Of a DNA stretch of 37,046 nucleotides, positions 1,919-32,004 are shown piece after piece. The stretch is taken from positions 1 through 37,046 of the forward strand of contig DUVY01000078.1 of the NCBI GenBank assembly GCA_012840805.1, given 5' to 3'. The translations under genes and the position numbers were made by a program. The notes under the pieces were generated by a model. That model saw only the letters and a list, made by a program, of their open reading frames with translations, was not told the origin of the DNA and did not search any database. How positions within the stretch are numbered: position 1 is the stretch's first letter; every line of letters begins with the position of its first letter. This DNA comes from Clostridiales bacterium (GTDB taxonomy: Bacteria; Bacillota; Clostridia; Christensenellales; DUVY01).

Positions 1919-4900
1919 ATGGGACAAAAAATTTATCGTATTTATGTTCAAAAAAAACAAGGATTTGACAACGCCGTGCGACAGTTTCTAACAGAACTAA
2001 ACCAACAATTAGGCCTAAGCTTGCAAGATATTAAGATCTTTTTGCGTTATGATATCGCCGGCTTAGGAGAAGACGAATTCAAAAAAGCGGTTGATTTGGT
2101 TTTGTCTGAATCAACTATAGATATTGTTTATTTTGAGCGTTTGCCCGAGTTTAAAGACTATACAATCTTTGGGGCGGAATTTTTACCCGGTCAATACGAC
2201 CAAAGGGCAGACAACGCCGCCCAATGTATACAGTTATTAACTCAAAAACAAAAACCTCTAATCAAATGTGCCAATATTTACGCGATAAAGGGCGCGGATA
2301 ATAATGAATTGAAAAAAATTCAAAATTATATAATTAATCCTGTTGAGTCAAGGCTTTGCGATTTAGAAAAGCCCAATACATTGGCTCAACAAAATTCCGA
2401 GCCAAAACCGATTAAGACAATAGACGGTTTTATTGATATGGACAAAAAGGCTTTGGAAAAATTCCATTCACAGCGCGGCTTCGCGATGAGCGTGAAAGAT
2501 TTGGAAATGGTTCGTCAGCATTTCAAAGCCGAAGACCGCAACCCCAATGAAGCCGAGCTAAAAATCATTGACACCTATTGGTCCGACCATTGCAGGCACA
2601 CCACTTTTTTGACCCAAATAACAGACATCAAAATCAACAGCGATAATCCGCACCTTAAAAAAGCCTACCAAAAATACCAAGAATTGTTTAACAAACACAA
2701 TTCCCGATGCCCTGATAAATATCAATGCCTTATGGACATAGCGACAATAGCCGTAAAAGAATTAAAAGCGCAAGGCAAGCTTGACAATCTAGACGAGTCC
2801 GACGAAATCAATGCTTGTTCGATTAAGCTAAAAGCCAATATAGACGGTCAAGAAGAAGATTGGATTGTTATGTTCAAAAACGAAACCCATAACCATCCCA
2901 CAGAAATAGAGCCTTTTGGCGGGGCGGCGACTTGCTTAGGCGGCGCGATTAGAGACCCGCTAAGCGGCAGGGTTTATGTATATCAAGCCATGCGCATAAC
3001 GGGCGCGGCTGACCCGACTGCGCCGATAGAGGCAACGCTTCAAGGCAAATTGCCCCAAAGAACGCTCACTCGCGCGGCGGCGGCAGGCTATTCTTCTTAT
3101 GGCAACCAAATAGGACTTAACACAGGTCTAGTAAAAGAGATATATCATCCTAATTATGTAGCCAAAAGAATGGAAGCGGGATTTGTGGTAGGAGCCGCGC
3201 CTGCTAGCAATATAATAAGAAAAAAGCCCGACTCTGGCGATATAGTCGTATTGCTAGGCGGAAAAACGGGCAGGGACGGAATAGGCGGCGCTACGGGCTC
3301 GTCAAAAGCTCATACGGCTGATGTTTTTGAAACAGCGGGCGCCGAAGTCCAAAAAGGCAATCCGTTGTTAGAAAGAAATATTCAAAGGTTATTCAAAAAC
3401 CCGTCCGTTACAAGATTAATCAAAAAATGCAACGACTTTGGAGCGGGCGGCATATCTGTGGCGATAGGCGAGTTGGCGGACGGCTTAGAAATCTATTTAG
3501 ACCGCGTTCCCGTAAAGTATGAAGGACTTAACGCTTTGGAGCTCGCGATTTCGGAATCTCAAGAGCGAATGGCGCTTGTAATAGCCGAGCAAGATTTCGA
3601 TGTTTTGAAGCATTACGCCGATTTAGAAAATTTAGATGCGACGCCTGTCGCTAAGGTCAACAACAGCAACAGAATGACTATGTATTTTAACGGTCAAAAA
3701 GTCATAGATATAGACCGCAATCTATTGAACACTAACGGCGCAAGGCAATATACAAAGGTTGAGATGCAAGAAGATACAAAAAATATCTTTGACACGCAAA
3801 AAGATATTACCGAGTTTTTGAAAGACAACGACTACAAGGCGGCGGTTTTGAAAAAATTATCCTCCCTCAACATTTGCTCGCAAAAAGGTCTGATTGAGAT
3901 GTTTGACTCCACGATAGGCGCATCCAATATAATTATGCCGCTTGGCGGGCAAAAACAATTGACCCCGTCCGAATGCATGGTTTGCAAATTGCCCGTAGGA
4001 AATGACCAGCAAACAACGACAGCGACCGTCGCGTCGTGGGGCTATAACCCATATATGATGTCCCAAAGCCCGTTTATGGGCGCTGTATATTCGGTGGTTT
4101 TGAGCGTTATGCGGGCAATTAGCGGCGGCGCCGATCCCGAATCTATCAGGCTGACTTTTCAGGAATATTTTTTAAGATTAGGACAAGACCCAAAACGCTG
4201 GGGAATACCTACGGCGGCGTTGCTCGGCGCATTATACGCCCAATTAGGTCTTCAAATGGGCGCTATAGGCGGCAAAGACTCAATGAGCGGAACTTTTGAG
4301 GATATTGATGTTCCGCCCACGCTGATATCTTTCGCGTTGGGGCTTACCGACTGCCGATATAACAATGTAACCAATGTCTTAAAAGAGCCCAACCAAGAAA
4401 TTATTTGGCTGAAGTTAAAAAGAGACGGTTTTGGAATGCCCGATTTCGATTATATCAACAGGCTTCTAAGAGTATTACATAACAATATCAAATCAGGCGC
4501 TATCAATTATATTCAAGTTATAGAAAATGGCGGAGCGGCTATCGCGGCAATTAAGTCCGCGCTATCCAACGGTCTAGGAGTTAATTTTTATATCGCCGCG
4601 CCTGAAATCTTTGATAATTTCGCGGGAGATTGCTTAATAACGGTTCAAGATTTGTCTATTTTGGACGGCTTTGAATACCAAAAACTAGGCGTTACGGTTT
4701 TAGGAGATACCGTTATTAATAATCAAAAAATAACTTTGGACGAAATTATTCAAAGCTATACATCGACTTTAGAAGAAGTATTTCCCACAAAAGCGGAGTC
4801 CGCCGAAGAAGTCAAAACTATTAATTATTTTGGAAAAGACTATCCAAAACAAAGCAAATATACCTTCGCTCGTCCCCGTGTGTTTATACCTATTGTTTTA

Positions 4901-5665
4901 GGCGCAAACGGCGAATATGATATGGAACGTGCGTTCAGGTCGGTCGGCGCGGAAGTTGTCTCATTTTTGCTAAGAACTCGCTCGCCACAAGACATCAAAG
5001 ATTCTATAAAAGAAATGGCGAAGATTATCAAAAACAGTCAAATCATAGCGATTCCGGGCGGAATCTCAAGCATAGACGATACAGGCGGGTCGGGCAAATT
5101 TGTAGCCGCGGTTTTCCAAGACCCTATCTTAAGCGAGGCTGTAAGGGAACTGATTAGTGACCGCGACGGGCTAATTATAGGCGTAGGCAGCGGTTTTCAG
5201 GCGTTATTAAAGCTTGGTCTTTTGCCGTTTGGTCAGATATCGCGGCCCAACTCAAGTAGCCCGACTTTGACAATCAACAACATCAACCGCCATATATCAA
5301 CTATCGCGAGAGTTAGAATATCTTCCGCAAAGTCGCCTTGGCTTGCGGGAGTTAAAGCGGGAGATATATTCGGCGCGCCGATATCCACCGCCGAAGGCAG
5401 ATTTACCGCAAGCATAGAAGACTTGCGAAAAATGGAGCAAAACGGACAGATTTTCAGCCAATTTGTAGATGACCTAGGCAATCCGAGTGCCGATACGCCT
5501 TATAACCCGACAGGGTCAATTTGGGCTATTGAAGGCATCATAAGCCCCGACGGTAAAATATTAGGCAGATTGGGTCATATAGAACGCTACCTGTCGGAAT
5601 ATAAAAATATTGATTTGTCTATGGACCAAAAAATATTTGAATCGGGAATAAATTATTTTAAATAA
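1919..5665 (+). CDS. purL: Single-chain FGAM synthase (PurL with fused PurQ-like domain); glutaminase site degenerate
   Basis: The 1248-residue protein has the one-chain architecture of clostridial/streptococcal FGAM synthases, which convert FGAR, ATP and glutamine to FGAM. The synthase half is intact: DTYWSDHCRHTTF (about residues 219-231), the FKNETHNHPTEIEPFGG block, and GGKDSMSGTF in the second repeat. The class I glutaminase-like domain starts near residue 980 (RPRVFIPIVLGANGEYD). In active relatives the nucleophile sits in a GICNGFQ-type block and the His in VSHGEG. Here these read GVGSGFQ (Gly1090) and ISTAEG (Thr1157), with only the Glu (1159) kept. The domain therefore should not hydrolyse glutamine. 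The enzyme may use free ammonia or a separate PurQ (inference). The gene ends the operon and a terminator follows. Confidence 0.95.
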   Translation: MGQKIYRIYVQKKQGFDNAVRQFLTELNQQLGLSLQDIKIFLRYDIAGLGEDEFKKAVDLVLSESTIDIVYFERLPEFKDYTIFGAEFLPGQYDQRADNAAQCIQLLTQKQKPLIKCANIYAIKGADNNELKKIQNYIINPVESRLCDLEKPNTLAQQNSEPKPIKTIDGFIDMDKKALEKFHSQRGFAMSVKDLEMVRQHFKAEDRNPNEAELKIIDTYWSDHCRHTTFLTQITDIKINSDNPHLKKAYQKYQELFNKHNSRCPDKYQCLMDIATIAVKELKAQGKLDNLDESDEINACSIKLKANIDGQEEDWIVMFKNETHNHPTEIEPFGGAATCLGGAIRDPLSGRVYVYQAMRITGAADPTAPIEATLQGKLPQRTLTRAAAAGYSSYGNQIGLNTGLVKEIYHPNYVAKRMEAGFVVGAAPASNIIRKKPDSGDIVVLLGGKTGRDGIGGATGSSKAHTADVFETAGAEVQKGNPLLERNIQRLFKNPSVTRLIKKCNDFGAGGISVAIGELADGLEIYLDRVPVKYEGLNALELAISESQERMALVIAEQDFDVLKHYADLENLDATPVAKVNNSNRMTMYFNGQKVIDIDRNLLNTNGARQYTKVEMQEDTKNIFDTQKDITEFLKDNDYKAAVLKKLSSLNICSQKGLIEMFDSTIGASNIIMPLGGQKQLTPSECMVCKLPVGNDQQTTTATVASWGYNPYMMSQSPFMGAVYSVVLSVMRAISGGADPESIRLTFQEYFLRLGQDPKRWGIPTAALLGALYAQLGLQMGAIGGKDSMSGTFEDIDVPPTLISFALGLTDCRYNNVTNVLKEPNQEIIWLKLKRDGFGMPDFDYINRLLRVLHNNIKSGAINYIQVIENGGAAIAAIKSALSNGLGVNFYIAAPEIFDNFAGDCLITVQDLSILDGFEYQKLGVTVLGDTVINNQKITLDEIIQSYTSTLEEVFPTKAESAEEVKTINYFGKDYPKQSKYTFARPRVFIPIVLGANGEYDMERAFRSVGAEVVSFLLRTRSPQDIKDSIKEMAKIIKNSQIIAIPGGISSIDDTGGSGKFVAAVFQDPILSEAVRELISDRDGLIIGVGSGFQALLKLGLLPFGQISRPNSSSPTLTINNINRHISTIARVRISSAKSPWLAGVKAGDIFGAPISTAEGRFTASIEDLRKMEQNGQIFSQFVDDLGNPSADTPYNPTGSIWAIEGIISPDGKILGRLGHIERYLSEYKNIDLSMDQKIFESGINYFK

Positions 5666-6469: not shown

Positions 6470-6730
6470 ATGACTGAAGGCGCCAACAAAAGAGGAATGA
6501 AATCGGTCTTAAGAAAAATTATAAAAGGCAAAAGCGCGGGTGCGCAATCTACCGCTAATGGTTCTCTCACCGCAAAAAAAAGCGCCGCCGCGATAATGAG
6601 CGCCCAAGACGAAATACCTTTCGCGTGGAAAGGCGATGTATTCGCGCGAAGAAAAGGCAAAAGGTCGTCTTATAGATTAATAAAAAAAATAACCAACCAA
6701 ATCAAGCCCAAAACTTCCAAAAACGATTAA
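6470..6730 (+). CDS. Small, strongly basic protein of unknown function (86 aa)
   Basis: The ATG is preceded by AGGAGA at proper spacing, which is the main reason to accept this gene. The protein is hydrophilic, without membrane segment or signal peptide, and unusually rich in Lys and Arg (a K/R-rich beginning, an Ala/Ser-rich middle, then WKGDVFARRKGKRSS and a lysine-rich end). Nucleic-acid or ribosome association would fit that composition but is only a guess. Its stop overlaps the stop of the convergent lipoprotein gene at 6727. The opposite frame (6415-6660) has no ribosome-binding site. It could still be a chance frame. Confidence 0.55.
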   Translation: MTEGANKRGMKSVLRKIIKGKSAGAQSTANGSLTAKKSAAAIMSAQDEIPFAWKGDVFARRKGKRSSYRLIKKITNQIKPKTSKND

Positions 6731-8022
6731 ACCCCAAAATAATAGGGCATAGCTTTTAATAACATAACTTTTATATCCATATCGTCTTTTATCCCTTTTG
6801 TATTGCTTGCTATTACTAAATAATCTTTTTCTATACAAAAAGCCATTATTTTATCGGTAACTTTTAAGTCCATAATTTTTATATTATAGTTGTTCGTTAT
6901 AATTAGTTTTTGATTGTTATTGTCTTGACTCAGCGCCGCGGTTATATATTGATTTTTAAAATATTTATAAGGCGCTGCAAGTTCTTGATTTAAGTTTTTT
7001 AGCCAAGCTATATGTTTATCGTCAATCAAATAATAACTTGGTTTTTGGGAATTAAAAAACACGGTCGCGTAATTTTGATTGGGTATAATACGAGCGCTTA
7101 TAATATTATCCTTTGATAAATGGCGTAGGTTTTGGAATTTGCCGTTTTCAAAAAAACAATACGCTGCTGTATTGTCTTGTGTTTCCTTGGCAAAAATCAA
7201 TAGAGCTTTATCGCCCAAAGACGCTACATCCAAAAGCCGATACGCGAGCATAGGGTTTTCTAAATTATGATAGACATATTGGCTTTTGGTAATGTCTATC
7301 ATAACAGGATAAGAATATTTTATCGCGACCGCGTTAATCCAAATATTAATGCTGTCTTTATTTTGAACATAGCCTATATATTTAAGGTCCGAGCTTTTTA
7401 CAATCCTTTGATAATTTTGCCGATTAAGATTAATATCCAATTGTTCTATAAACAAGTTTCTGGTATCGTAAACGCTATCAAAATTTTGCCCGATTATAAA
7501 AATTTTGTTATCCCTATGTATCAAATCAAGCGCGTATTCGTCCAAAAGACCGCTACCCAAAACCCTATAATTTGATTGCCCGTTATTGAGATTAATTTTA
7601 TATAAAACCACGCTTTTTGTCTTTAAGGCGCAATCGGATAAAACAAAAAGATAATCGCCTATTATTATCGACTTTACAAAACTGTTTTGCTTATCGGAAG
7701 CGGCAAAGGACCATATATTTTTTAATTCTCCGTCAAAGCCTATTTTTCCTAAAAAAAGTTTTTGCCCCAATTTAGAAGAAGTAAAATCGCGGTCATAAGA
7801 ATTACTCTCGCCTATAATATAAATAAAACCGTCATAGCAAAATACATCTTTTACGGCGTCATCCTTGCTTCCGCCGATTATTGTCTGCCATAAAGCAAAA
7901 GGATAAGGGTATATCGCGGGCTTGCCGTAATCCCAAACAACATTGTTTTGGGGCGTTTTGGCGCAGGAGAAGATTATCAAAAATAAAACAGCGAGAAAAC
8001 ATAACTTAAAAAATTTACGCAT
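6727..8022 (-). CDS. Lipoprotein of unknown function, possible beta-propeller
   Basis: The 431-residue protein begins with a basic n-region, a hydrophobic stretch and a lipobox-like IIFSC with Cys20, so it is likely anchored outside the membrane. The first repeat-like unit (WQTIIGGSKDDAVKDV followed by GFIYIIGESNS) resembles units of extracellular beta-propeller proteins. The rest is made of alternating hydrophobic strands with Tyr/Asn-rich turns, also fitting a propeller. No enzyme motif was found. It starts 17 bases downstream of the murG stop on the same strand and may be co-transcribed. No clear Shine-Dalgarno sequence precedes the ATG. Ligand and role are unknown. Confidence 0.8.
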   Translation of the reverse strand: MRKFFKLCFLAVLFLIIFSCAKTPQNNVVWDYGKPAIYPYPFALWQTIIGGSKDDAVKDVFCYDGFIYIIGESNSYDRDFTSSKLGQKLFLGKIGFDGELKNIWSFAASDKQNSFVKSIIIGDYLFVLSDCALKTKSVVLYKINLNNGQSNYRVLGSGLLDEYALDLIHRDNKIFIIGQNFDSVYDTRNLFIEQLDINLNRQNYQRIVKSSDLKYIGYVQNKDSINIWINAVAIKYSYPVMIDITKSQYVYHNLENPMLAYRLLDVASLGDKALLIFAKETQDNTAAYCFFENGKFQNLRHLSKDNIISARIIPNQNYATVFFNSQKPSYYLIDDKHIAWLKNLNQELAAPYKYFKNQYITAALSQDNNNQKLIITNNYNIKIMDLKVTDKIMAFCIEKDYLVIASNTKGIKDDMDIKVMLLKAMPYYFGV

Positions 8023-14913: not shown

Positions 14914-15399
14914 ATGAAATTTGTATTGGAAGAATCAAAAGTTCAATTATTGAAAGAGCGCATCCAAAAACACAAGCAAAAGCCAGGACCTTTGATGCCT
15001 ACTTTGCATGACGCGCAAAATATTTTTGGGTGCATTCCTATTGAGGTTCAAAAAATTATATCCGAAGAATTAGACGAATCGGTCGCCAAAATCAACGGCG
15101 TAGTCACATTTTATTCTAATTTTTCGACCGAGCCCAAAGGCAAGCATATCGTTAGCGTGTGCATGGGCACGGCTTGCTATGTAAAAGGCGCGAAAGCTAT
15201 TTTGGACACTATTTCGGATATGTTGAATATAGAGCCCGGTCAAACGACCAAAGACGGTTTGTTTACATTAGAAAATACGCGTTGTATCGGCGCTTGTGGT
15301 CTCGCGCCTGTGTTTCAGATCGGCGACAAAGTTTATGGCAACGCGACCAAAGACACAGCAAAACAAGCTATAGAAGAAATTTTAAAATCGGAAGCTTAA
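14914..15399 (+). CDS. hydC: [FeFe] hydrogenase subunit HydC (NuoE-like, thioredoxin-fold [2Fe-2S])
   Basis: This is the small subunit of a multi-subunit NAD(P)-linked hydrogenase, homologous to NuoE of complex I. The 161 residues include the four cluster ligands in their family spacing: Cys83 and Cys88 (CMGTAC), Cys124 and Cys128 (CIGAC). The VVTFYSNF and ENTRCIGACGLAPV blocks are also typical. AAAGGGG precedes the ATG. It is the first gene of the operon; hydB starts 20 bases later. In the complex it carries electrons to or from the flavin subunit HydB. The small-subunit assignment is secure; whether the partner pyridine nucleotide is NADH is inferred from HydB. Confidence 0.94.
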   Translation: MKFVLEESKVQLLKERIQKHKQKPGPLMPTLHDAQNIFGCIPIEVQKIISEELDESVAKINGVVTFYSNFSTEPKGKHIVSVCMGTACYVKGAKAILDTISDMLNIEPGQTTKDGLFTLENTRCIGACGLAPVFQIGDKVYGNATKDTAKQAIEEILKSEA

Positions 15400-15419
15400 T
15401 TAGGGTTGAGGAGAAATAG

Positions 15420-17255
15420 ATGGTTACTTTTGATTATTTGAATGCCACCAAAATTAAGACCGAAGCCAAAATAAACCCTCAAAATCATAAAAATGGATTT
15501 AGGGTTGTCGTAGGAATGGCGACATGCGGTCTTACCGCGGGAGCGGATAAAGTTTTTCAAACATTAAAACAACTTATCGAATCTAATAATTTAGATAATA
15601 TTGATTTGGCGCCAGTAGGTTGCGTGGGCGAGTGCGCCCTAGAGCCGCTAGTCGAAGTGATTGACCATCAAGGGCAAAAGACCACATATTGCAAGGTAAG
15701 CCTTCAAGATATTGAAAAGATTGTCAATCAACATCTTATAAGCGGCGCGCCCGTAAAAGAATTGACAATAGACAATTATAAAAATATAGACAGTTCTTCT
15801 TTGCAAGTTCGTATCGCTTTGAGAAATTGCGGCGTTATTAACCCCGAGGATATCAACGAATATATTTGCTATGACGGTTACAAGGCTTTGGGCAAAGTTT
15901 TGACCGAAATGACGCCCGAAGAGGTAATTCATGTTATACAAGAATCCGGACTTAGAGGTCGCGGCGGCGGCGGTTTTTCGACTGGTCTCAAATGGAGTCT
16001 ATGCGCCAAAAACAAAGGCGGTCAAAAATATATAATTTGCAACGCCGATGAAGGCGACCCTGGCGCGTTTATGGACAGGGCTGTGCTAGAGGGAGACCCT
16101 CATAGCGTGATTGAGGCGATGGCGATTGGCGGCTACGCCATAGGCGCGTCTCAAGGATACATATATATTAGAGCCGAATATCCCTTAGCGGTGCAAAGGC
16201 TTAATAAAGCGATTGAGCAAGCTTACGAGGCAGAGCTTTTGGGCAAAAACATTTTTGGCACGGATTTTTGTTTTGACCTTGAGTTAAGGCTTGGCGCGGG
16301 CGCGTTTGTGTGCGGAGAAGAAACCGCGTTGATCGCGTCAATAGAAGGCGAGCGGGGAATGCCTAGAAACAAACCGCCGTTTCCCGCGGATAAAGGGCTT
16401 TTTGCTAGACCTTCAATAATTAATAATGTAGAGACTTACGCTAATATCTCGCCCATTGTTTTGAAAGGCGCCAAGTGGTTCGCCTCAATGGGTACGCAAA
16501 AGTCCAAAGGCACCAAAGTTTTCGCTTTGGGCGGCAAAATCAATAATACGGGCTTATTGGAAGTTCCTATGGGCACAACCTTAAGACAGGTAATATACGA
16601 TGTTGGCGGCGGAATACCCAATAACAAAAAATTCAAAGCCGTCCAAACAGGCGGGCCTTCAGGCGGATGCTTGACCGCCGAGCACCTTGACACGCCCATA
16701 GATTATGACAACCTTGTTAAACTAAACTCAATGATGGGTAGCGGCGGAATGATTGTAATGGACGAAGAAAACTGTATGGTGGATGTGGCGCATTTTTATT
16801 TGCAATTTACGGTTGAAGAGTCCTGCGGAAAATGCACGCCTTGCCGCGAAGGCACCCATAAGATGTTAGAAATTTTAGAAAAGATAAAGTCAGGCAACGG
16901 AACGATGCAAGATATCACCGAGTTGGAAGAATTGGCGTATTATATCCAAGATTCCGCGCTGTGCGCTTTGGGGCAGTCCGCGCCTAATCCCGTTATATCA
17001 ACTCTATTGAACTTCAAAGACGAGTACATCGCGCATGTTACGGACAAAAAATGCCCCGCCAAAGTATGTAAAGCGCTTGTAAACTATGCGGTCGTTGCTG
17101 ACAAGTGCATAGGCTGCACAAAATGCAAGCGTAATTGTCCCGTTCAGGCTATAAGCGGCGAAGTCAAGAAACCCCATAAGATTGACACCAACCGCTGTAT
17201 CAAATGCGACATGTGCAGACAAGCTTGCCCTGTTAACGCTATTATCTTGGAATAG
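15420..17255 (+). CDS. hydB: [FeFe] hydrogenase flavin subunit HydB (NuoF-like)
   Basis: HydB oxidises or reduces pyridine nucleotide at FMN and passes electrons to iron-sulfur clusters. In bifurcating complexes it couples NADH and ferredoxin to H2. The 611 residues show an N-terminal thioredoxin-like domain (Cys36, Cys68, Cys72) and the glycine-rich NADH/FMN site RGRGGGGFSTGLKW. NADEGDPGAFMDR, GAGAFVCGEETALI and the [4Fe-4S] block SCGKCTPCREG follow. The C terminus carries two ferredoxin-type motifs, CIGCTKCKRNCP and CIKCDMCRQACP. This domain order is that of HydB/HndC, not of plain NuoF. GAGGAG precedes the ATG. hydA follows after 10 bases, with its Shine-Dalgarno sequence overlapping the hydB stop. 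Confidence 0.95.
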   Translation: MVTFDYLNATKIKTEAKINPQNHKNGFRVVVGMATCGLTAGADKVFQTLKQLIESNNLDNIDLAPVGCVGECALEPLVEVIDHQGQKTTYCKVSLQDIEKIVNQHLISGAPVKELTIDNYKNIDSSSLQVRIALRNCGVINPEDINEYICYDGYKALGKVLTEMTPEEVIHVIQESGLRGRGGGGFSTGLKWSLCAKNKGGQKYIICNADEGDPGAFMDRAVLEGDPHSVIEAMAIGGYAIGASQGYIYIRAEYPLAVQRLNKAIEQAYEAELLGKNIFGTDFCFDLELRLGAGAFVCGEETALIASIEGERGMPRNKPPFPADKGLFARPSIINNVETYANISPIVLKGAKWFASMGTQKSKGTKVFALGGKINNTGLLEVPMGTTLRQVIYDVGGGIPNNKKFKAVQTGGPSGGCLTAEHLDTPIDYDNLVKLNSMMGSGGMIVMDEENCMVDVAHFYLQFTVEESCGKCTPCREGTHKMLEILEKIKSGNGTMQDITELEELAYYIQDSALCALGQSAPNPVISTLLNFKDEYIAHVTDKKCPAKVCKALVNYAVVADKCIGCTKCKRNCPVQAISGEVKKPHKIDTNRCIKCDMCRQACPVNAIILE

Positions 17256-17265
17256 GAGTTTAATA

Positions 17266-19038
17266 ATGAATACTGTGACATTGACTATAGACGGACAAAA
17301 AATTACTGTGCCTGAAAACTATACTATATTACAGGCAGCGAAAGAATTAGGAATCAATATACCTAGGTTATGCTATTTAAAAGATATCAATGAAACATCG
17401 GCTTGCCGTATTTGCGTTGTGGAAATAGAAGGCATGCGCACGCTAAAAAACTCATGCACAGTTAAAGTTCAAAACAACATGGTTGTCAAAACCAATACCC
17501 CGCGCGTCCGAAAATCTATTCAAAAAAACCTTATGCTTTTGGCGTCCAATCACAAATTTGATTGCTGGAAATGCCCCAGAGAGCGCAATTGCGAGTTTTT
17601 GTATTTGTTGAGAAAATACAATATTGACAACTCAATGGGCGAGGACGCATACTTTGCCAAAAAGCATTTTATAACCAATATAACAGACGCCATAGTTTTG
17701 GATAGTTCCAAATGTATCTTGTGCGGCAGATGCGTCAGCGCTTGCCAAAAATACGCGGGCACGGGCGCGCTTGATTTTAACGAACGCGGATATCACACTT
17801 ACATAAGCTCTGCCCAAAACCACGACCTTGACGACAGCGGCTGTATTTATTGCGGCAAATGCATTCAGGCTTGCCCAACAGGCGCTTTAAGAGAAAGAGA
17901 CCAAATAGACGAAGTTTTAGAACTTCTATCCAATAAAGAATATTACACCGTAGTTCAGATTGCCCCCGGCGTGAGAGCCGCTTTGGGCGAAGAATTTGGT
18001 TATCCAATAGGCACAAATGTAGAAGGCAAGCTGTATAACGCGCTTAGTAAATTAGGATTTGACGACATCACAGATACCAACTTCAGCGCGGATGTGACCA
18101 TAATGGAAGAAGGCACAGAATTTATTCACCGGTTTCAAGACTTTAAAAACGGCGACAAAAAAGCCTTGCCGCTTTTTACATCTTGCTCGCCTGGTTGGAT
18201 AAGATATATAGAGCAATACTATCCCGAATTTTTGTCCAACTTGTCGTCTTGCAAATCGCCTCAGCAGATGCACGGCGCGTTAGTAAAACATTATTACGCC
18301 CAAAAAATCAATACTCCCAAAGAAAAGATAAAAGTCGTTTCTATTATGCCTTGCATAGCCAAAAAATACGAGGCAAAGCGTCCCGAGATGGAAGCGGACG
18401 GCGTGCGAGATGTAGACTATGTTTTGACCACTCGCGAGCTTGCCAGAATGATAAGAAGACAAGATATTGATTTTAGAGCCTTAGAAGATATTACGCCTTC
18501 TAGCCCTATGGCTAAATACACCGGAGCGGGCGCAATCTTTGGCGTAACGGGCGGCGTTATGGAAGCGGCGCTAAGAACGGTAAGGGACATACTAGAACAA
18601 AAAGATTATACCGATGTGGACTTTGCCGCTATAAGAGGAGCGGGGGACGGCATCAAAGAAGCCCAAATCGAAATAGCGGGAACAAAGCTGACTGTGGCGG
18701 TCGTTCATGGGGCGGTCAACTTCAAAGAAATGCTTGAAAGAGTCAAACAAAACCCCGGCAAATACGCTTTTGTTGAGTTTATGGCTTGCACGGGCGGATG
18801 CGTCAACGGCGGCGGACAGCCTATCTTATGCGCAGAAGACCAAGAAAATATAGACATAAGAACCGAAAGGGCAAAGGCGATATATAATATAGACGCCCAA
18901 AAACAGTTGCGCAAATCCCACCAAAACCCTGTTGTGATTGAGCTTTACCAAGAATTTTTGGAAAAACCCGGCAGCGAAAAGGCTCATAAGCTTTTGCATA
19001 CGCATTATGCCAAAAAGGAAAGTTATTCAAAACTTTGA
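17266..19038 (+). CDS. hydA: [FeFe] hydrogenase catalytic subunit HydA
   Basis: HydA makes or consumes H2 at the H-cluster. From the ATG at 17266 (AGGAG 7 bases upstream; earlier in-frame starts lie inside hydB) it has 590 residues. In order are a [2Fe-2S] domain (Cys36, 47, 50, 64), a His-ligated cluster (His96, Cys100, 103, 109), and two ferredoxin motifs (Cys150-160 and Cys193-203). The H-domain follows with L1 FTSCSPGW (about 304-311), L2 MPCIAKKYE and L3 EFMACTGGCVNGGGQ. A small-subunit-like end closes the protein. L1 has Ser where many hydrogenases have a second Cys. With hydC and hydB this is the HydABC type expected in anaerobic fermenters. Maturases HydE, HydF and HydG are not in the window. 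Confidence 0.96.
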   Translation: MNTVTLTIDGQKITVPENYTILQAAKELGINIPRLCYLKDINETSACRICVVEIEGMRTLKNSCTVKVQNNMVVKTNTPRVRKSIQKNLMLLASNHKFDCWKCPRERNCEFLYLLRKYNIDNSMGEDAYFAKKHFITNITDAIVLDSSKCILCGRCVSACQKYAGTGALDFNERGYHTYISSAQNHDLDDSGCIYCGKCIQACPTGALRERDQIDEVLELLSNKEYYTVVQIAPGVRAALGEEFGYPIGTNVEGKLYNALSKLGFDDITDTNFSADVTIMEEGTEFIHRFQDFKNGDKKALPLFTSCSPGWIRYIEQYYPEFLSNLSSCKSPQQMHGALVKHYYAQKINTPKEKIKVVSIMPCIAKKYEAKRPEMEADGVRDVDYVLTTRELARMIRRQDIDFRALEDITPSSPMAKYTGAGAIFGVTGGVMEAALRTVRDILEQKDYTDVDFAAIRGAGDGIKEAQIEIAGTKLTVAVVHGAVNFKEMLERVKQNPGKYAFVEFMACTGGCVNGGGQPILCAEDQENIDIRTERAKAIYNIDAQKQLRKSHQNPVVIELYQEFLEKPGSEKAHKLLHTHYAKKESYSKL

Positions 19039-19061: not shown

Positions 19062-20012
19062 ATGAAAAAAGTATTATCATTTGTTTTATTTTTGGTCATA
19101 TCGTTATCTAGCGTTTTTATGCTAGCGTGCGCCAAAGAGAGCGACAAAGTCAAGGTTATGGTTCCCAACGGAATCACCTTGATAGCGTGGGGCGGACTTT
19201 ATGATAATCGTGATGTAGAAATTGACAATGTGAATGGACCTGATTTATTATCGACTGCATTTGCTTCGTCTTCTCACGATATAATTGTAGCGCCGTTAAA
19301 CCTAGGCGCGAAGTTGTATAACAACAGTAATACCAAATATAAATTAGACTCAATGATTACTTTTGGCAATTTGTTTATTGTGTCTAAAGATAAAGTTTCA
19401 TTAGATGATAAATTGCAAGATTTAAAAGGCAAAAAGTTGATAGCCTTTGGGCGAAACGCAACGCCCGACATAATCTTGCAAGCGGCGTTAAATTCAAAAG
19501 ATATAACAGATTGCGAAATAGAGTATCAATCGGGCGTAAGCGAAGTTGTGGCTTTGTTTAAAGGCGAAGATTCAGAATATGACTACGCTCTTGTAGCTGA
19601 GCCCGTTTTATCGCAATTAAAAAATATGGGATTGGATCTTAATATCGTTGACCTTCAAGAAGTCTTGCAATATGATAGCGATATGGAATCTATTCCTCAA
19701 GCGGGCGTTTTTATCAACCCCGAATCCAAAAGAATAGACAAGATTAATGAAGCATTACAAGAACTAAAAAACAATATCGAATACCTAAAAGCCAATCCCC
19801 AAGATTACGCTCAAGATATAATCAAACATCATGAGTATTTTAAAAACATAACTAGCGAAGTTATTGCCTCGGCTATTCAAAGCGGCGATATTATAGATTA
19901 CAAAAAAGCCAAAGATAATAAACCCGTTTTGGAAGCGTATTTTCAATTACTAATAGACCAAAATAAAAACTTGCTGGGCGCTCAGCCCTCGGATGATTTT
20001 TATTATTACTGA
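19062..20012 (+). CDS. ABC transporter substrate-binding lipoprotein, SsuA/ThiY-like
   Basis: A signal peptide with lipobox MLAC (Cys23) predicts a lipoprotein on the outer face of the membrane. The 316-residue protein has the two-lobe pattern of NMT1/SsuA-type binding proteins: an early DIIVAPLNLGAKLY strand, LKGKKLIAFGRNATPDIIL in the middle, and YDYALVAEPVLSQL. These carriers bind aliphatic sulfonates, thiamine precursors or similar small molecules; the ligand here cannot be read. It starts 23 bases after hydA with no terminator between, so it probably belongs to the hydrogenase transcript. The permease gene begins 10 bases after its stop. No ATPase gene accompanies them. Confidence 0.8.
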   Translation: MKKVLSFVLFLVISLSSVFMLACAKESDKVKVMVPNGITLIAWGGLYDNRDVEIDNVNGPDLLSTAFASSSHDIIVAPLNLGAKLYNNSNTKYKLDSMITFGNLFIVSKDKVSLDDKLQDLKGKKLIAFGRNATPDIILQAALNSKDITDCEIEYQSGVSEVVALFKGEDSEYDYALVAEPVLSQLKNMGLDLNIVDLQEVLQYDSDMESIPQAGVFINPESKRIDKINEALQELKNNIEYLKANPQDYAQDIIKHHEYFKNITSEVIASAIQSGDIIDYKKAKDNKPVLEAYFQLLIDQNKNLLGAQPSDDFYYY

Positions 20013-24811: not shown

Positions 24812-27247
24812 TTATCTTTCCAATATGGCTGTAATTTTATGAATTTTGTTATCTTTAAAACTAGGAATTATATTTCCTTCTATTTTTTGACCGTCCACGA
24901 TAAGATTTTTAACGCCTTTGCATAGCTTTTGCGGGTTTTTAACGGTAATTTCGTATACCGCGTTTTGATAGTGTCTAACTACCGTATATTCCTCAAAATC
25001 TTGCGGTATGCAAGGGTCTATTTTTAAGCCCTCATATTCGGGTCTTATTCCCAAAATGCTTTGTGTAATCGCCACAAAATTCCACGACGCCGTGCCCGTA
25101 AGCCAAGAGTTTTTGGCTTGACCAAAGTTTTTGGCATCAGGACCCGCGATCATCTGTGAATAAACATAAGGCTCGGTTTTGTGTATATCGCTTTCATCTT
25201 CCAAATACGCCGGGCAAATGCGCTTATAAGACTCAAATGCTTTGTCGCCCCTGCCTATAGCGGTTTCGCCCATCATAATCCAAGGGTTGTTATGACAAAA
25301 GACCGCGGCGTTTTCTTTATATCCCGGCGGATAAGACGATATCTCGCCAAGATGTAGATAATACTTAGTATAAGCGGGCTGCACTAACACAAAACCGTAT
25401 TTTGTGGCGAGATATTTCCAAGCGCTGTCTAGCGCGCGTTTTGGATAACCCATATCATTGCCTATAAGCGCCATAGAGCCAAAACCTTGAGTTTCTATAA
25501 AGATTTTGCCCTCTTCATTTTGTTTAGAGCCCACAGGATTGGAAAAGGCGTCATACGCTCTTAGGAACCATTCGCCGTCCCAACCATATTTTATAATCGC
25601 TTGTTCCATTTTGGCGATTTCGGTTTCCACCAATTGAGCGTCTTCTTCTAAGTTATATTTTTGGCATAGCCTTAGATAATCTTTGCCTATATATACCGCC
25701 ATACAAGCGATCAAAACGCTTTCGGCTTTGTCGCCGCCTACATTTTCGGTCGTTTGAAAACTCTCGTCGGGATTTTTAGAAAAACAATTTAGATTTAGGC
25801 AATCGTTCCAATCGGCTCTTCCAATCAAAGGCAAACCGTGCTCGCCTAGATTGCCTACAACTTTGCTAAACGCCCGCCTTAAGTGCTCGTGCAAAGGCGT
25901 AACAAGTTCGTGATTGTTGTCATAAGGCACTAGCTCGTCCAAAATAGTATGGTCGTCGGTTTCCCTAAGATAAGCGCAAACCGCCAATATAAGCCAAAGC
26001 GGGTCGTCGTTAAAATTGCCGCCTATATCGTGATTGCCTTTTTTGGTCAAGGGCTGATACTGATGATAGGCGCCCCCGTCAGGAAGCTGGGTAGAGGCAA
26101 GGTCAATAATGCGTTGACGGGCTAGATGCGGAATTTGATGCACAAACCCCAATAAATCTTGCGAACTATCCCTAAAGCCCATACCTCTGCCTATGCCGCT
26201 TTCAAAATACGATGCGCTTCGCGACATATTAAAAGTAACCATAACTTGATATTGATTCCATATATTGACCATACGGTTTAATTTTTCATCGTGGCTTGTC
26301 AAATAAAATTTATTAAGCAAACCGTCCCAAAATTCTTTTAATTTGTTTAACTCTTGCGTTATTTTTTGAACAGTATTAAGCTTTTCAAGCGTTTCTTTGA
26401 CGGGCGCTTTGTTTACTTTTCCGTCTATCCATTTTTGTTCTTCGGGCAATTCAGCGTAACCCAAAACAAAGATAAAATCCTCGCTGGATTGGGGCGCCAA
26501 CTCAACTTCTATATAATGCGAAGCAATAGGCGACCACCCCGAAGCCAATGATTGATAGCTTACGCCTTCGCTCACCGTCCGCGGACAGTCAAATCCGTTA
26601 TAAAGCCCCAAAAATGTATCCCTATCGGTATCAAACCCGTCAATATCGGAAATGGACGCGTAATAAGCGTAATGATCGCGTCTTTCGCGATATTCGGTGA
26701 TATGATATATTACATTATCCTCAACTTCCACTTCGCCCGTAGAAAAATTTCGTTGAAAATTGGTCATATCGTCGTAAGCGTTCCACAAACAAAACTCTTC
26801 CAAAGTCCAAATTTTGATTTTTCTTACAGTGTCAGTATTATTGGTTAAGGTCAAATGCTGAACCATAGCGCTTATATTCAAAGGCACAAAATAAACAACT
26901 TTAGCCTGTAGTTCGTCTTTGGATGAAGTTATTTTAGTATATCCCAGGCCGTGACGGCATTCATAGCTGTCAAGCTCGGTCTTGAGCGGTTTCCAGCCGG
27001 GCGACCAGACCGTATCGCCGTCTTTTATGTATATATAATTGCCCCCGTCGTCAATAGGGACATTATTATATCTATACCGAGTAATACGGCGAAGCCTGGC
27101 GTCTTTATAAAAACTATAACCGCCAGCGGTATTGGAGATAAGGCTAAAAAAATCTTTGGTTCCCAAATAATTAATCCACGGATACGGAGTCTTGGGCGTT
27201 GTAATCGCGTATTCTTTGTTGTTGTCGTCAAAATAACCAAATTTCAT
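24812..27247 (-). CDS. Cellobiose phosphorylase (GH94)
   Basis: The enzyme splits cellobiose with phosphate to glucose 1-phosphate and glucose in the cytoplasm. The N-terminal run [16 protein letters not shown] followed by [40 protein letters not shown] and [17 protein letters not shown] are hallmark cellobiose-phosphorylase segments. [11 protein letters not shown] contains the catalytic Asp (Asp482). The ATG at 27247 has AAGGAG upstream and gives 811 residues, the usual length for clostridial enzymes; the codon before it is a TTG without its own site. It starts 11 bases after the stop of the other GH94 gene, so the two form an operon. The glucose 1-phosphate made would go to the phosphoglucomutase or GalU. 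Confidence 0.95.
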
Positions 27248-27258
27248 CAAAATACTCC

Positions 27259-30186
27259 TTAAACAAGAATTTCCACTCTAATATTTTTTTGGTTTAGGTC
27301 AAGGGGTATCGCGCCCTTATGTTCTTTGCCGTTTAATTTTATGATTGTGGCGTCGCTTACGCGGCAAAAACCTTTTTTGCTCTTTTTTATTGTTATATCA
27401 AATTGACAGCCGCGAATTTTCAAAGTAATATCGGCGTTGTCCATACTCTTTAAGAGCATAGGATTAAGCTCAATACCCTCGGTCGTGACATTAAGCCCAA
27501 ACATCTCAAACAATGTCAAGGTAAGCCAAGACGCCGTGCCCGAAACAATAGGCCCTACGTTTTCATTGGTTTGAGAATTATTGTATTGGGTGCAAAATCT
27601 CGGATTGCCTTTAAGAACAAAAGGATTTTTCAAAGTCTTATAGGGCAAGACTCTGTCAAGCATATATTCGCACAGCTCTGTCAATTCATTTGCCAATTCT
27701 TCGCTTTTTACTTGTTTGGCGGCTTGCAGCATCGCACAGGTCGCCATCATTGTAGCGTGTTTAAACACGCCCCCGTTTTCGCGATCGCCCGGGAAATAAT
27801 GCCCGCTTGCCGTGCCGTAAGCCAATCTTTCTAAGTCGGCGAGCGTGTTAAGTTTTAGGCCCGCCTCGGTCATAAGATATTTTTTGATAGGGTCAAGCAT
27901 AGTTTTGATTTGGTCTTCGGTAGCTGTTTGAGACAAAATAGACCAGCTAAACGAGTTAAGAAAATATGTGCCGTCAATATTAGGGTCGTTGGATAAACCG
28001 TCGCCTTTGGCGCCCAGATATGTATATTTGCCGTCTTCAAAGCGGTTAATCATAACACGCGCGAAGAAATCGCCTTTCCACGCTTTTTTGTGCGCGCCTT
28101 CTCTTAACCTGTTAAGCAAAGATTGCAAATATTGGGCGTATTCTTGGTCATTAATCTTTCTAGCCAGTTGCAAAGTATAATCAACCGTTATTATAAGCAA
28201 GAACAAATTCATTACGCTTTCGCACAAGTCGTTCTCAAAAGGAACGCCGTAAGGCTGTCCTTTGGCTTTTAGTTGCTCATAATACAGCTTTTCTTTGGTC
28301 GGACCGTCCAGCCAATTATCGTCTAATTTTAGGCAGTCGTTCCAATCGCTTCTATCAAGCAGGGGAAAACCATTTTTGCCAATGGATATTTCGCCGCTGT
28401 ATTGAATAATCGCTTTTAGCGTTTGATACAAGGTGCGCCTCTTATCGCTAGCGGCAATTTTGCATTCTTGATTCAAAAAGTCAATATCGCCCGTTAGCGT
28501 AATATATCTATAAACCGCGGGCGCTAGCCACAGCCCGTCATCCGAGCAAATGCCCGGCTCTTTTCCTTTCCAAAAAAAGTTATGGTTGGCGTAACCCATT
28601 TCATACACATTATTGGCCCATTGCGTAACCAATTCCCTAATTAATTGGGGGTTGTCCATCGCCGCCATATAATACATAGAAGCGTAAATGTCTTGAATTT
28701 CCCTAAAGCCAATTTCCCTAAAGCCTTTTTGCGTTTGGGCGAAAGAACGCGACACAAAAGTTTGATACAGCGTTTGGAAAGGCAGGTTATTGTTAAGATA
28801 AGCGTTTAGATTGGGCTCGTCGGTATTTACTTGCAGATACGACGAAAAATTGCGATAGAAAGCTTTGACTTTATCAAACATAGCGCACCAAAAATCAGGC
28901 TTTATAATCTCGTCCAATAACGCGCCCACTTGCTCGTCAAAAAGTTGATTAATCTTTTCTTCGCTCTCATTGCCCTTGCAAGATACAGCGCCCGTATAAA
29001 CATCTATATTAATTTCGTCATTGGCTTTGACGCCAAAAGACTTGCCTAGCGCGAAAAAAGCGGGACCTTTGGTATTGTGCTTACAATTCAAAAAATTAAG
29101 ATTTTGCGGATACTCGATAGAGCCTTTTCCTACAAAGGCGGTATAATCCGCGCAGAACTCGTCAAAATATTGACCTTGGCAACTTAAGGTAACAAACCTT
29201 TTGTCTTCTTTAAAATAACTAGGATAATAGTGCGACGAAAAAGCAGCCAATTTATTGTCTTTATATATGGTTTCGGATTCCATTATAACGGTAGAATACA
29301 CCACATCGGTAACCAGGGCCTGTTCGGCAGGCGTGCCAAATATACCGGTAAAGACAATCTTTAGATTTCTATCTTGATTTAGAGTATTCTTTACGACAAT
29401 GCGTTGAGTTTCTATGGCTTGCGGCAAGCCTTTAATTTGGGGGACTATAAATATAGTATTGGTTATCTCAAGTCCGCATTTGGTTTTGTATGTTATAACA
29501 GTATGATTTTGGCTATGAATACAATGTCCTCCCTCAAGAGTATTTACATCGGCGGAATAAAAGATTCTCTTGCCGTCTTCTATTATATAAAATTGTCTAT
29601 TGACGGGATTGCCGTTTTCCTCGGGGCGCATATCCCATCTTGCGGCGGTAACCTGCGTGGCGGAATGCGATCTAAAAGAACCTCTTCCCAGCCAATCAAC
29701 CACGGCCTTGGGAGTGGTTTGCAGGGGATACTCATATCCAATCCTGTTGCCCAACAAAAGATTGACCGCAAAGTGCGGCGAAATAGGCGGAACGGTAATA
29801 TCAAAAATATGCTCGCCTTTTTCATTTAGGCGCCCGCCAAAATTTTGGGCTCTGTTAGCGTAATAAATAATTTTTAGCGCGATCTCGGCGGGGAGTTGAT
29901 TTTCTTTTGAGCCCGAAAAGTGTCTTACAAAATCATTTTCAATTATAAAAAGATTGTCATAATCCTTATACCCATTAATATATGATACTAATAGGCGATC
30001 GTTTAGTATAAGCGCGACAACGGGACATTGAAATTTTAATCCGCTTACGGCAATTAATTTATCGCCCGCTATTTGAGCGTCAATGCCGCCTTTTAACAAC
30101 TCTTGGTCAAACCTATCTTTACAAATGTCATAATTGGAAGGAAAAATTCCCAAAAATTCTCTAGCCGTTTGTCTTTGGATATTCAT
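27259..30186 (-). CDS. GH94 glycoside phosphorylase, cellodextrin-phosphorylase-like
   Basis: This 975-residue GH94 enzyme has a long N-terminal domain, ending around the [20 protein letters not shown] region, the beta-sandwich, and an (alpha/alpha)6 catalytic domain. [12 protein letters not shown] carries the presumed catalytic Asp617; [16 protein letters not shown] lies near the C terminus. Length and the CLKLD variant suit cellodextrin phosphorylase (about 980 residues), which shortens longer beta-1,4-glucans by one glucose as glucose 1-phosphate. Beta-1,3 or beta-1,2 specificity is not excluded. The ATG at 30186 is preceded by AAAGGAG (12-base spacing). The frame could extend to a TTG at 30237, but that would translate through an operator. 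It is first in the operon with cellobiose phosphorylase. Confidence 0.85.
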
Positions 30187-30212
30187 AAAAAAATCATTCT
30201 CCTTTACCTCAA

Positions 30213-30226
30213 CTAAAACGATTAAG
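30213..30226. promoter_or_regulatory. Putative LacI-family operator O1
   Basis: ctaaaacgattaag is a 14-base palindrome of the form CTnAAnCGnTTnAG, centred on CG as is usual for LacI-family sites. It lies in the 5' leader of the leftward GH94 operon. Confidence 0.6.
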
Positions 30227-30269
30227 TTATCGCGCAAAAAAATTTAAAATAATACAAGTTATTGCTAAA

Positions 30270-30504: not shown

Positions 30505-32004
30505 ATGAAAAAAAGATTACCCGTTCTACTGCTAGCTTTGGCTATGGTCTTTTCTTTTTCGGTTACGATGTTTGCTTGCAAACCCTCGGAAGAAGGTCCT
30601 GGCGGAACAGCTAAGAAAAAGCTAGTAGTTTGGTCAATGTCCAACGAAGTAGTTGAGCTGTTGAATTATCACAAATTAGCTAACCCGGACTACGAGTATG
30701 ACTTTGACATTACCTTTATCAACAACGACGACGGTAGCTACGAAGCGGCTCTTGACAACGCTTTCTCATCCAAGAAGGGCGGACCTGACTTGTTCTTGAC
30801 CGATGTGGACTACACCAAAAAATATGTAGATAGCGACCATACTGTAGATTTGACAAAATTTTATGATTCAAAAGGCACTTATGATTCCGTAAGAGATGCT
30901 CTTGAAGAAGACATGTATGGTTACACATTGGATATAGGAACAAGAGTAGTAGGCGAAAAGAAAGAACTAAAAGCTGTTTCGTTCCAAGTCACTCCGGGCG
31001 CTATGTTCTATCGCGCTGATATGTTCCTAACGCTTATTGACAATGGCTTGCTAGAAGGCGAAGAAGAAGAAGGCGTAGAAAATTTTGACGCATGGAAGGA
31101 AGCTGTAGACTTAGATGAAAGCGCTACATTAGCCAATTATAAAGATTGGTCCGAAAACGATAAACAAAAAGTTGACCAAGCTATGCAAGAATTTGTCGGC
31201 GACGATATGGATAAGTTTAAAGACGCCGCTAAGGCTATCGCAGAATGCGCTTATAATGAAGAAAAGGCAGAAACCAAGAAAATCTTGATGGTCAACAACC
31301 TAGAAGACATCAAGAGAGTATTCTACGCTCAGCGCGACGCCTTTGTCCAAGACGGCAAAGTAGTCATTGACGAAAACATCTATGGATTATTTGAATACGC
31401 TAAGGAAATCTATCCTCTCACCCATAAGGGCGATCAATGGGGCGACAGCTGGAATGCTGGTATGAAAGCGAAGAATGATGATGATGCCGAATACAAGACC
31501 ATGGCGTTCTTCTTGCCTACTTGGGGATTGTTCTATGTTCTTCAGAACGACGATACAGCTGGTCTTTGGAGAATGATTGAAGGTCCTCAAGCTTATTATT
31601 GGGGCGGCACTTACTGTATGATCAGCAAGTATGCCGATGCCGATAAGCAAGAAGCCGCGTTTGATGTTCTCAACTTCTTGACATCGTTGCCTTTCTTCCA
31701 AGCTCGCGCGGGATTTGCTGGCGATGTTATGAACTCAAAATCTCTCAACGCAGCATTGGCAAGTATGGATATTTTGGGCAATCCTTTCTTGGGCGGACAA
31801 AACCACTATGCTACATTTAACACATTGGCTGACGCTATTGACGCTTCCAATGTCACCAAATACGACTCCACGGTTGACCGCGTTCTCGCCGATGTTATGA
31901 AGAGATACGCTGCGGAAGATATTGAAGAACTTGACGATGCTTGGGATGAAGTTGTAGACAGACTAAATTCAGACCTTGATATGGACGTTGAATTACCATC
32001 ATAA
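30505..32004 (+). CDS. Sugar ABC transporter substrate-binding lipoprotein (family 1)
   Basis: A signal peptide with lipobox MFAC (Cys25) predicts a surface lipoprotein. The 499-residue protein has the family 1 extracellular solute-binding layout: KKKLVVWSMSNEV strand at the start, GGPDLFLTDVDY, a MAFFLPTWGLFY block and YYWGGTYCMISKYADADKQEAAFDVLNFL toward the end. Such proteins catch oligosaccharides for import. The neighbouring GH94 and GH5 genes suggest cello-oligosaccharides or related beta-glucans (inference). AGGAGGA precedes the ATG. The gene uses more C-ending codons (AAC, TTC, GAC) than its neighbours, a sign of high expression, and a very stable hairpin separates it from the permease genes. 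Confidence 0.92.
   Translation: MKKRLPVLLLALAMVFSFSVTMFACKPSEEGPGGTAKKKLVVWSMSNEVVELLNYHKLANPDYEYDFDITFINNDDGSYEAALDNAFSSKKGGPDLFLTDVDYTKKYVDSDHTVDLTKFYDSKGTYDSVRDALEEDMYGYTLDIGTRVVGEKKELKAVSFQVTPGAMFYRADMFLTLIDNGLLEGEEEEGVENFDAWKEAVDLDESATLANYKDWSENDKQKVDQAMQEFVGDDMDKFKDAAKAIAECAYNEEKAETKKILMVNNLEDIKRVFYAQRDAFVQDGKVVIDENIYGLFEYAKEIYPLTHKGDQWGDSWNAGMKAKNDDDAEYKTMAFFLPTWGLFYVLQNDDTAGLWRMIEGPQAYYWGGTYCMISKYADADKQEAAFDVLNFLTSLPFFQARAGFAGDVMNSKSLNAALASMDILGNPFLGGQNHYATFNTLADAIDASNVTKYDSTVDRVLADVMKRYAAEDIEELDDAWDEVVDRLNSDLDMDVELPS

Follow-up and report, generated by a model that had tools for sequence, protein, structure and literature searches.

The C-terminal glutaminase domain of PurL, the FGAM synthase encoded in the window (the whole stretch of 37,046 nucleotides that was analyzed), is almost certainly dead, as judged from its residues, and the synthase part of the protein is conserved. 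We consider it very likely that PurL runs on free ammonia with the dead domain as a scaffold, as part of a genome-wide loss of glutamine sites, and our sequence comparisons suggest that this uncultured Clostridia-type bacterium takes free ammonia straight into the synthesis of its purines, pyrimidines, and amino acids. The purL region contains the following features:

31 to 636, + strand: purH, C-terminal part, truncated by the contig start (PRK00881, profile positions 318-510).
652 to 1917, + strand: purD, the upstream neighbor of purL (TIGR00877, 511 bits).
1919 to 5665, + strand: purL, single-chain phosphoribosylformylglycinamidine synthase of the TIGR01857 type, 1248 aa.
4871 to 5659, + strand: C-terminal class I glutaminase domain (GATase_5), predicted to be catalytically dead (PF13507, 208 bits, positions 1-260).
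5063 to 5083, + strand: PGGFSGGDEP block, here PGGISSIDDT (F1049I, G1052I, E1054D, P1055T).
5186 to 5191, + strand: nucleophile site, with Gly1090 in place of Cys (GGC, codon 5186-5188) and Ser1091 in place of the adjacent Asn.
5387 to 5395, + strand: Thr1157 in place of the catalytic His (ACC, 5387-5389), Ala1158 in place of Gly, and Glu1159 kept.

The purL reading frame is open throughout, with no stops or frameshifts, and its product matches TIGR01857 at 1562 bits (curated cut-off, 1057) over profile positions 2-1239 of 1239. It is like the clostridial single-chain FGAM synthases in family, architecture, and length but differs from them in that its glutaminase lacks the catalytic Cys and His; only the Glu of the Cys-His-Glu triad of class I amidotransferases is present. 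From its sequence, the C-terminal domain reads as a class I glutaminase fold at full length. No second PurL copy was found in a search of the genome.

The first-pass annotation had named a GVGSGFQ nucleophile block, an ISTAEG block, and GGISSIDD for GGFSAxDE as marks of the loss, and alignment with relatives bore out all three: the siblings and the rest of the order read GICNGFQ and (I/V)SHGEG in register with the first two, the third is a change from GGFSGGDE, and Gly1090 aligns with the Cys of 71 of 74 PurL proteins. A fourth proposed mark, GHIER for GHSER, is no sign of glutaminase loss, because siblings with intact Cys and His read AHIER. The Cys/His pair is present in 71 of the 74 PurL proteins of the order and absent in 3, and a replacement pair in register was looked for in PurL without success. 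Both same-genus genomes (G003, 69% identical; G004, 65% identical) retain the PurL Cys and His, and three same-family genomes retain the nucleophile and His blocks. The synthase half had been called intact, and its full-length match to TIGR01857 agrees with this. Among the positions that are near-invariant in intact PurL relatives, the synthase keeps 234 of 243 and has 9 changed, whereas in the glutaminase 16 of 75 are changed (Fisher p = 8e-6); the sibling G003 has 3 of 243 changed in the synthase and 0 of 75 in the glutaminase. The changes in PurL are thus beyond chance.

By our reading of active-site motifs, six or more enzymes of the genome are affected, PurL among them; the other amidotransferases were read from separate contigs. 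PyrG has GISLGMQ in place of GICLGMQ and has lost its catalytic Cys. GuaA has GIGQGQ in place of GICYGEQ, so that its Cys is lost, and its SGGP oxyanion block is lost as well, while TrpG reads GIGLGHQ without Cys and FCPGS for FHPES (HPE to CPG), losing His and Glu also. The Cys of these three enzymes is kept in the siblings. The N terminus of AsnB is MSG instead of MCG, and this Cys is kept in G003 and lost in G004; Ser for Cys at AsnB position 2 was seen in two congeners (G004, L064/L104; G000, L062), and in G003 both the AsnB orthologue and a second AsnB retain Cys. PurF keeps Cys1, with the conserved Thr after RYS changed to Ala and SSDTE to SSNAE (register confirmed by alignment to Bacillus subtilis PurF, 1ao0), and HisH keeps Cys and HPE, with the PGVG oxyanion strand changed to CGAA (register set against Thermotoga maritima HisH, 1gpw). 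These changes in PurF and HisH may abolish activity. Codon reassignment was considered and rejected as a source of the pattern, because HisH, NadE, PurF, and the CarA of another species (G092) retain Cys at comparable sites and the lost Cys sites carry differing codons (GGC, TCA, GGT, GGG, AGC).

One glutaminase subunit gene has disappeared altogether. In G003, carA sits between an amidohydrolase gene and an aldo-keto reductase gene next to pyrG; in the window's genome these flanking neighbors lie 206 bases apart, with carA deleted between them, and a search of the 206-base intergenic stretch for a carA remnant gave no match, only the expected weak TrpG/PyrG similarity. The carB gene remains as an open frame of 1063 residues, 83% identical to that of the sibling. 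In addition, GlmS, the GOGAT-like cluster of G003, and an ammonium transporter (Amt) were not found in the window's genome, and Amt was not found in G004 or G001; some of these searches used concatenated protein pieces of 120-600 residues as the query. The absences in the window's genome, like that of PurQ described below, come without synteny and are provisional, because the assembly (231 contigs) is 93.9% complete.

Several genes of nitrogen metabolism are retained, namely, those for glutamine synthetase GlnA (C12), glutamate dehydrogenase (C145), GlnRS (C30), GatCAB with an intact Ser-Ser-Lys triad in GatA, and a NadE of two domains that retains its glutaminase residues (GlnRS, GatC/A/B, and the carA neighbors were named by sequence reading, not by family search). 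Since GlnA, GlnRS, GatCAB, and NadE remain, the cell must still produce glutamine and spend it on protein synthesis and a small number of other reactions. The two intact-looking glutaminases, GatA and NadE, belong to other fold families, amidase and nitrilase. The NadE of G004 (L158, G004:C206:8906-10708) reads GVELGEDL for GVEICEDL, so that the nitrilase-type glutaminase Cys kept in the window's genome is lost there. A SIS-domain protein (G000:C198:19277-21251, in L142), 30% identical to the isomerase half of GlmS and without a glutaminase domain, adjoins an apparent PIG-L type deacetylase; it might supply glucosamine-6-phosphate in an ammonia-dependent way, should GlmS prove to be missing.

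Comparable losses occur in other species of the order. The PurL of G092, from a different family, reads GIDNGFQ and ISNVEG and has lost Cys and His, and that of G288 (L220, L289) reads GIANGFQ and FSNAYG, with Cys changed to Ala, His to Asn, and Glu to Tyr. In the synthase-domain tree, each of the three dead PurL proteins pairs with an intact sister at a support of 1.00, so PurL lost these residues three separate times; the same glutaminase columns (F1049, C1090, H1157, G1158, N1198) are changed in all three. G092 also has a PyrG with GIGLGLQ, a dead GuaA that lacks both Cys and HPE, and a CarA with YPE for HPE. Its congener G028 has intact PurL and GuaA, a PyrG with GIGMGLQ and FQPE, and a CarA with GISMGHQ and HPV, so that PyrG and CarA read as dead in both genomes. 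PyrG is intact in 70 of the 73 genomes examined. Dead PurL and dead PyrG coincide (2/2 versus 1/38, p = 0.004, in 40 genomes, a comparison of small numbers uncorrected for shared ancestry); G288 is absent among the genomes with a PyrG match listed.

The first-pass annotation had offered two ways for PurL to work, with ammonia taken directly and the domain kept for structure or with ammonia received from another amidotransferase. The former stands as the best reading of the sequence, and the latter is weakened, because a free PurQ was not found and most other class I and II amidotransferases of the genome are damaged. More broadly, it is improbable that PurL ammonia is supplied in trans by any separate glutaminase, whether a PurQ that escaped detection, a free glutaminase, or a different amidotransferase. 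PF13507 matched the PurL domain alone, and PF00117 matched only TrpG, PyrG, GuaA, and HisH, three of the four without Cys. Trans supply draws some credit from the 93.9% completeness of the genome, at which a gene could be missed, and from GlsA-type free glutaminases lying outside the search, but the same loss across unrelated enzymes would call for many partners.

Glutamine analogues of the DON, azaserine, and acivicin type alkylate amidotransferase cysteines. The Cys losses could therefore be a protection from such an inhibitor, with ammonia use as a tolerated cost, and the hitting of several enzymes at once and the recurrence of the loss in separate lineages would suit this explanation. We regard it as slightly less probable than supply in trans: the losses extend to His, Glu, oxyanion, and glutamine-binding residues, carA is deleted outright, and PurF, a main target of such analogues, retains its Cys. 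Together with the failure to find GlmS, GOGAT, and Amt, a relaxed need for glutamine fits better than target protection.

A further explanation is decay of whole pathways, with purines, pyrimidines, and tryptophan salvaged and the glutaminase sites as the first casualties of general pseudogenization. In a tree of three genomes, the window's genome has a private branch of 0.43 in the PurL glutaminase domain (0.08 in the siblings) and of 0.25 in the PurL synthase (0.10-0.14 in the siblings). The synthase domains of this genome are thus faster too (about 2-fold in PurL), which is what pathway decay would predict, but the private branch is longest in glutaminase domains, and from the column counts and branch lengths we take the PurL change to be concentrated on the glutaminase. 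Every frame is open and full length, and the synthases are conserved (PyrG 90%, GuaA 80%, and CarB 83% identical to the sibling), so we hold pathway decay to be unlikely, a little more so than analogue resistance. An assembly or binning artefact, that is, sequencing error or foreign contigs in a fragmented assembly, is the least credible explanation and highly unlikely, because the genes concerned lie on separate contigs, each collinear with a same-genus genome and mostly 65-90% identical, their reading frames are unbroken, and three other species show the pattern as well.

We therefore return to ammonia in place of glutamine. PurL without glutamine hydrolysis would make FGAM from FGAR, ATP, and free ammonia, and the dead glutaminase domains would persist as scaffolds, for folding or contacts. 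The class I and II glutamine amidotransferases of the species would have lost, or be losing, their glutamine sites, being dismantled singly by active-site loss or by loss of the glutaminase subunit, and the synthase domains or subunits of PurL, PyrG, GuaA, AsnB, CarB, and TrpE would take ammonia directly. Glutamate dehydrogenase would fix ammonia into glutamate, and glutamine would be made mainly for protein synthesis, GatCAB, and NadE. Beyond the observed residue losses, carA deletion, synthase conservation, and independent recurrence, we infer that ammonia is the substrate, that the dead domains act as scaffolds, and that a constantly ammonia-rich habitat is the cause. The change is incomplete, because NadE and GatA have intact-looking glutaminase residues, Cys remains in PurF and HisH, and Amt was not found.

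Ammonia use by such synthases has precedents. Synthesis of carbamoyl phosphate from ammonia resides in the CarB subunit (PMC6245113), GMP synthetases can work with ammonia supplied from outside (PMC10526850), and Escherichia coli PurF Cys1 mutants retain ammonia use (PMC3261824). Against our reading, the published bacterial enzymes need high ammonia, and the concentration required by E. coli CPS has been called likely physiologically irrelevant (PMC6245113).

Individual amidotransferases that carry a dead domain and use only ammonia are already known. Mammalian CPS I keeps a fused class I glutaminase domain in which Cys is replaced (Ser294) and is ammonia-only, with an alternative ammonia entrance proposed (PMC4655335); the PurL domain is likewise retained without Cys. 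This comparison is a working analogy and not one of homology, and it concerns a single enzyme in a single animal lineage, whereas several unrelated amidotransferases are affected in the window's bacterium. Archaeal PurF' proteins are amidotransferase homologues without catalytic Cys that were proposed to be ammonia-dependent (PMC3261824), as we read PurL, but they are second copies beside an intact PurF, and here the sole PurL copy found is affected. In thaumarchaeal PurQ, a triad residue of an FGAM synthase glutaminase is changed, as in PurL here (His to Asn; PMC3261824), but Cys and Glu are kept, whereas PurL here loses Cys and His. The single-domain NH3-dependent NadE of type N is also an ammonia form of an enzyme with a glutamine-using counterpart (PMC3376133); it lacks a glutaminase domain and was proposed to be ancestral, and the loss in PurL is a secondary one within a retained domain. 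Genome-wide scale is the surprising part of the present case, and no report of genome-wide, recurrent amidotransferase loss in bacteria was found in the literature searched, outside which most subscription papers lay.

Some other genes of the window bear on the way of life of the organism. GH94 phosphorylases, a GH5 cellulase, sugar permeases, and an [FeFe]-hydrogenase suggest a fiber-fermenting anaerobe, and a gut or digester is a plausible habitat. Consecutive genes at 14914-19038 (+ strand) for a 2Fe-2S thioredoxin-like ferredoxin, a NuoF-like protein, and an [FeFe]-hydrogenase look like an electron-bifurcating hydrogenase of the HydABC type. A second GH94 protein (27259-30237, - strand, 992 aa; 146 bits to Glyco_hydro_94) is far more divergent than its neighbor at 24812-27250 (528 bits). 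Three frames had no Pfam match (6727-8022, - strand, 431 aa; 19062-20012, + strand, 316 aa; and 30505-32004, + strand, 499 aa), the last two of which adjoin ABC permease genes.

Textbooks hold that purines, CTP, GMP, carbamoyl phosphate, anthranilate, and asparagine must take their nitrogen from glutamine, free ammonia being too dilute. We are inclined to think that several lineages of this order have independently ceased to rely on glutamine as their general source of nitrogen and make nucleotides and amino acids from free ammonia. If several lineages do run on ammonia alone, this would be a recurrent metabolic mode hitherto undescribed in bacteria. It would also call for caution in annotation and metabolic models, in which all these enzymes would be labeled as glutamine-hydrolyzing. 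If true, a fermenting bacterium with most of its glutaminase functions lost, and with the syndrome repeated in its relatives, would offer a natural experiment on the adaptation of synthases to free ammonia, on the reasons for keeping dead glutaminase domains, and on whether genomes can reveal the ammonia concentration of a habitat.
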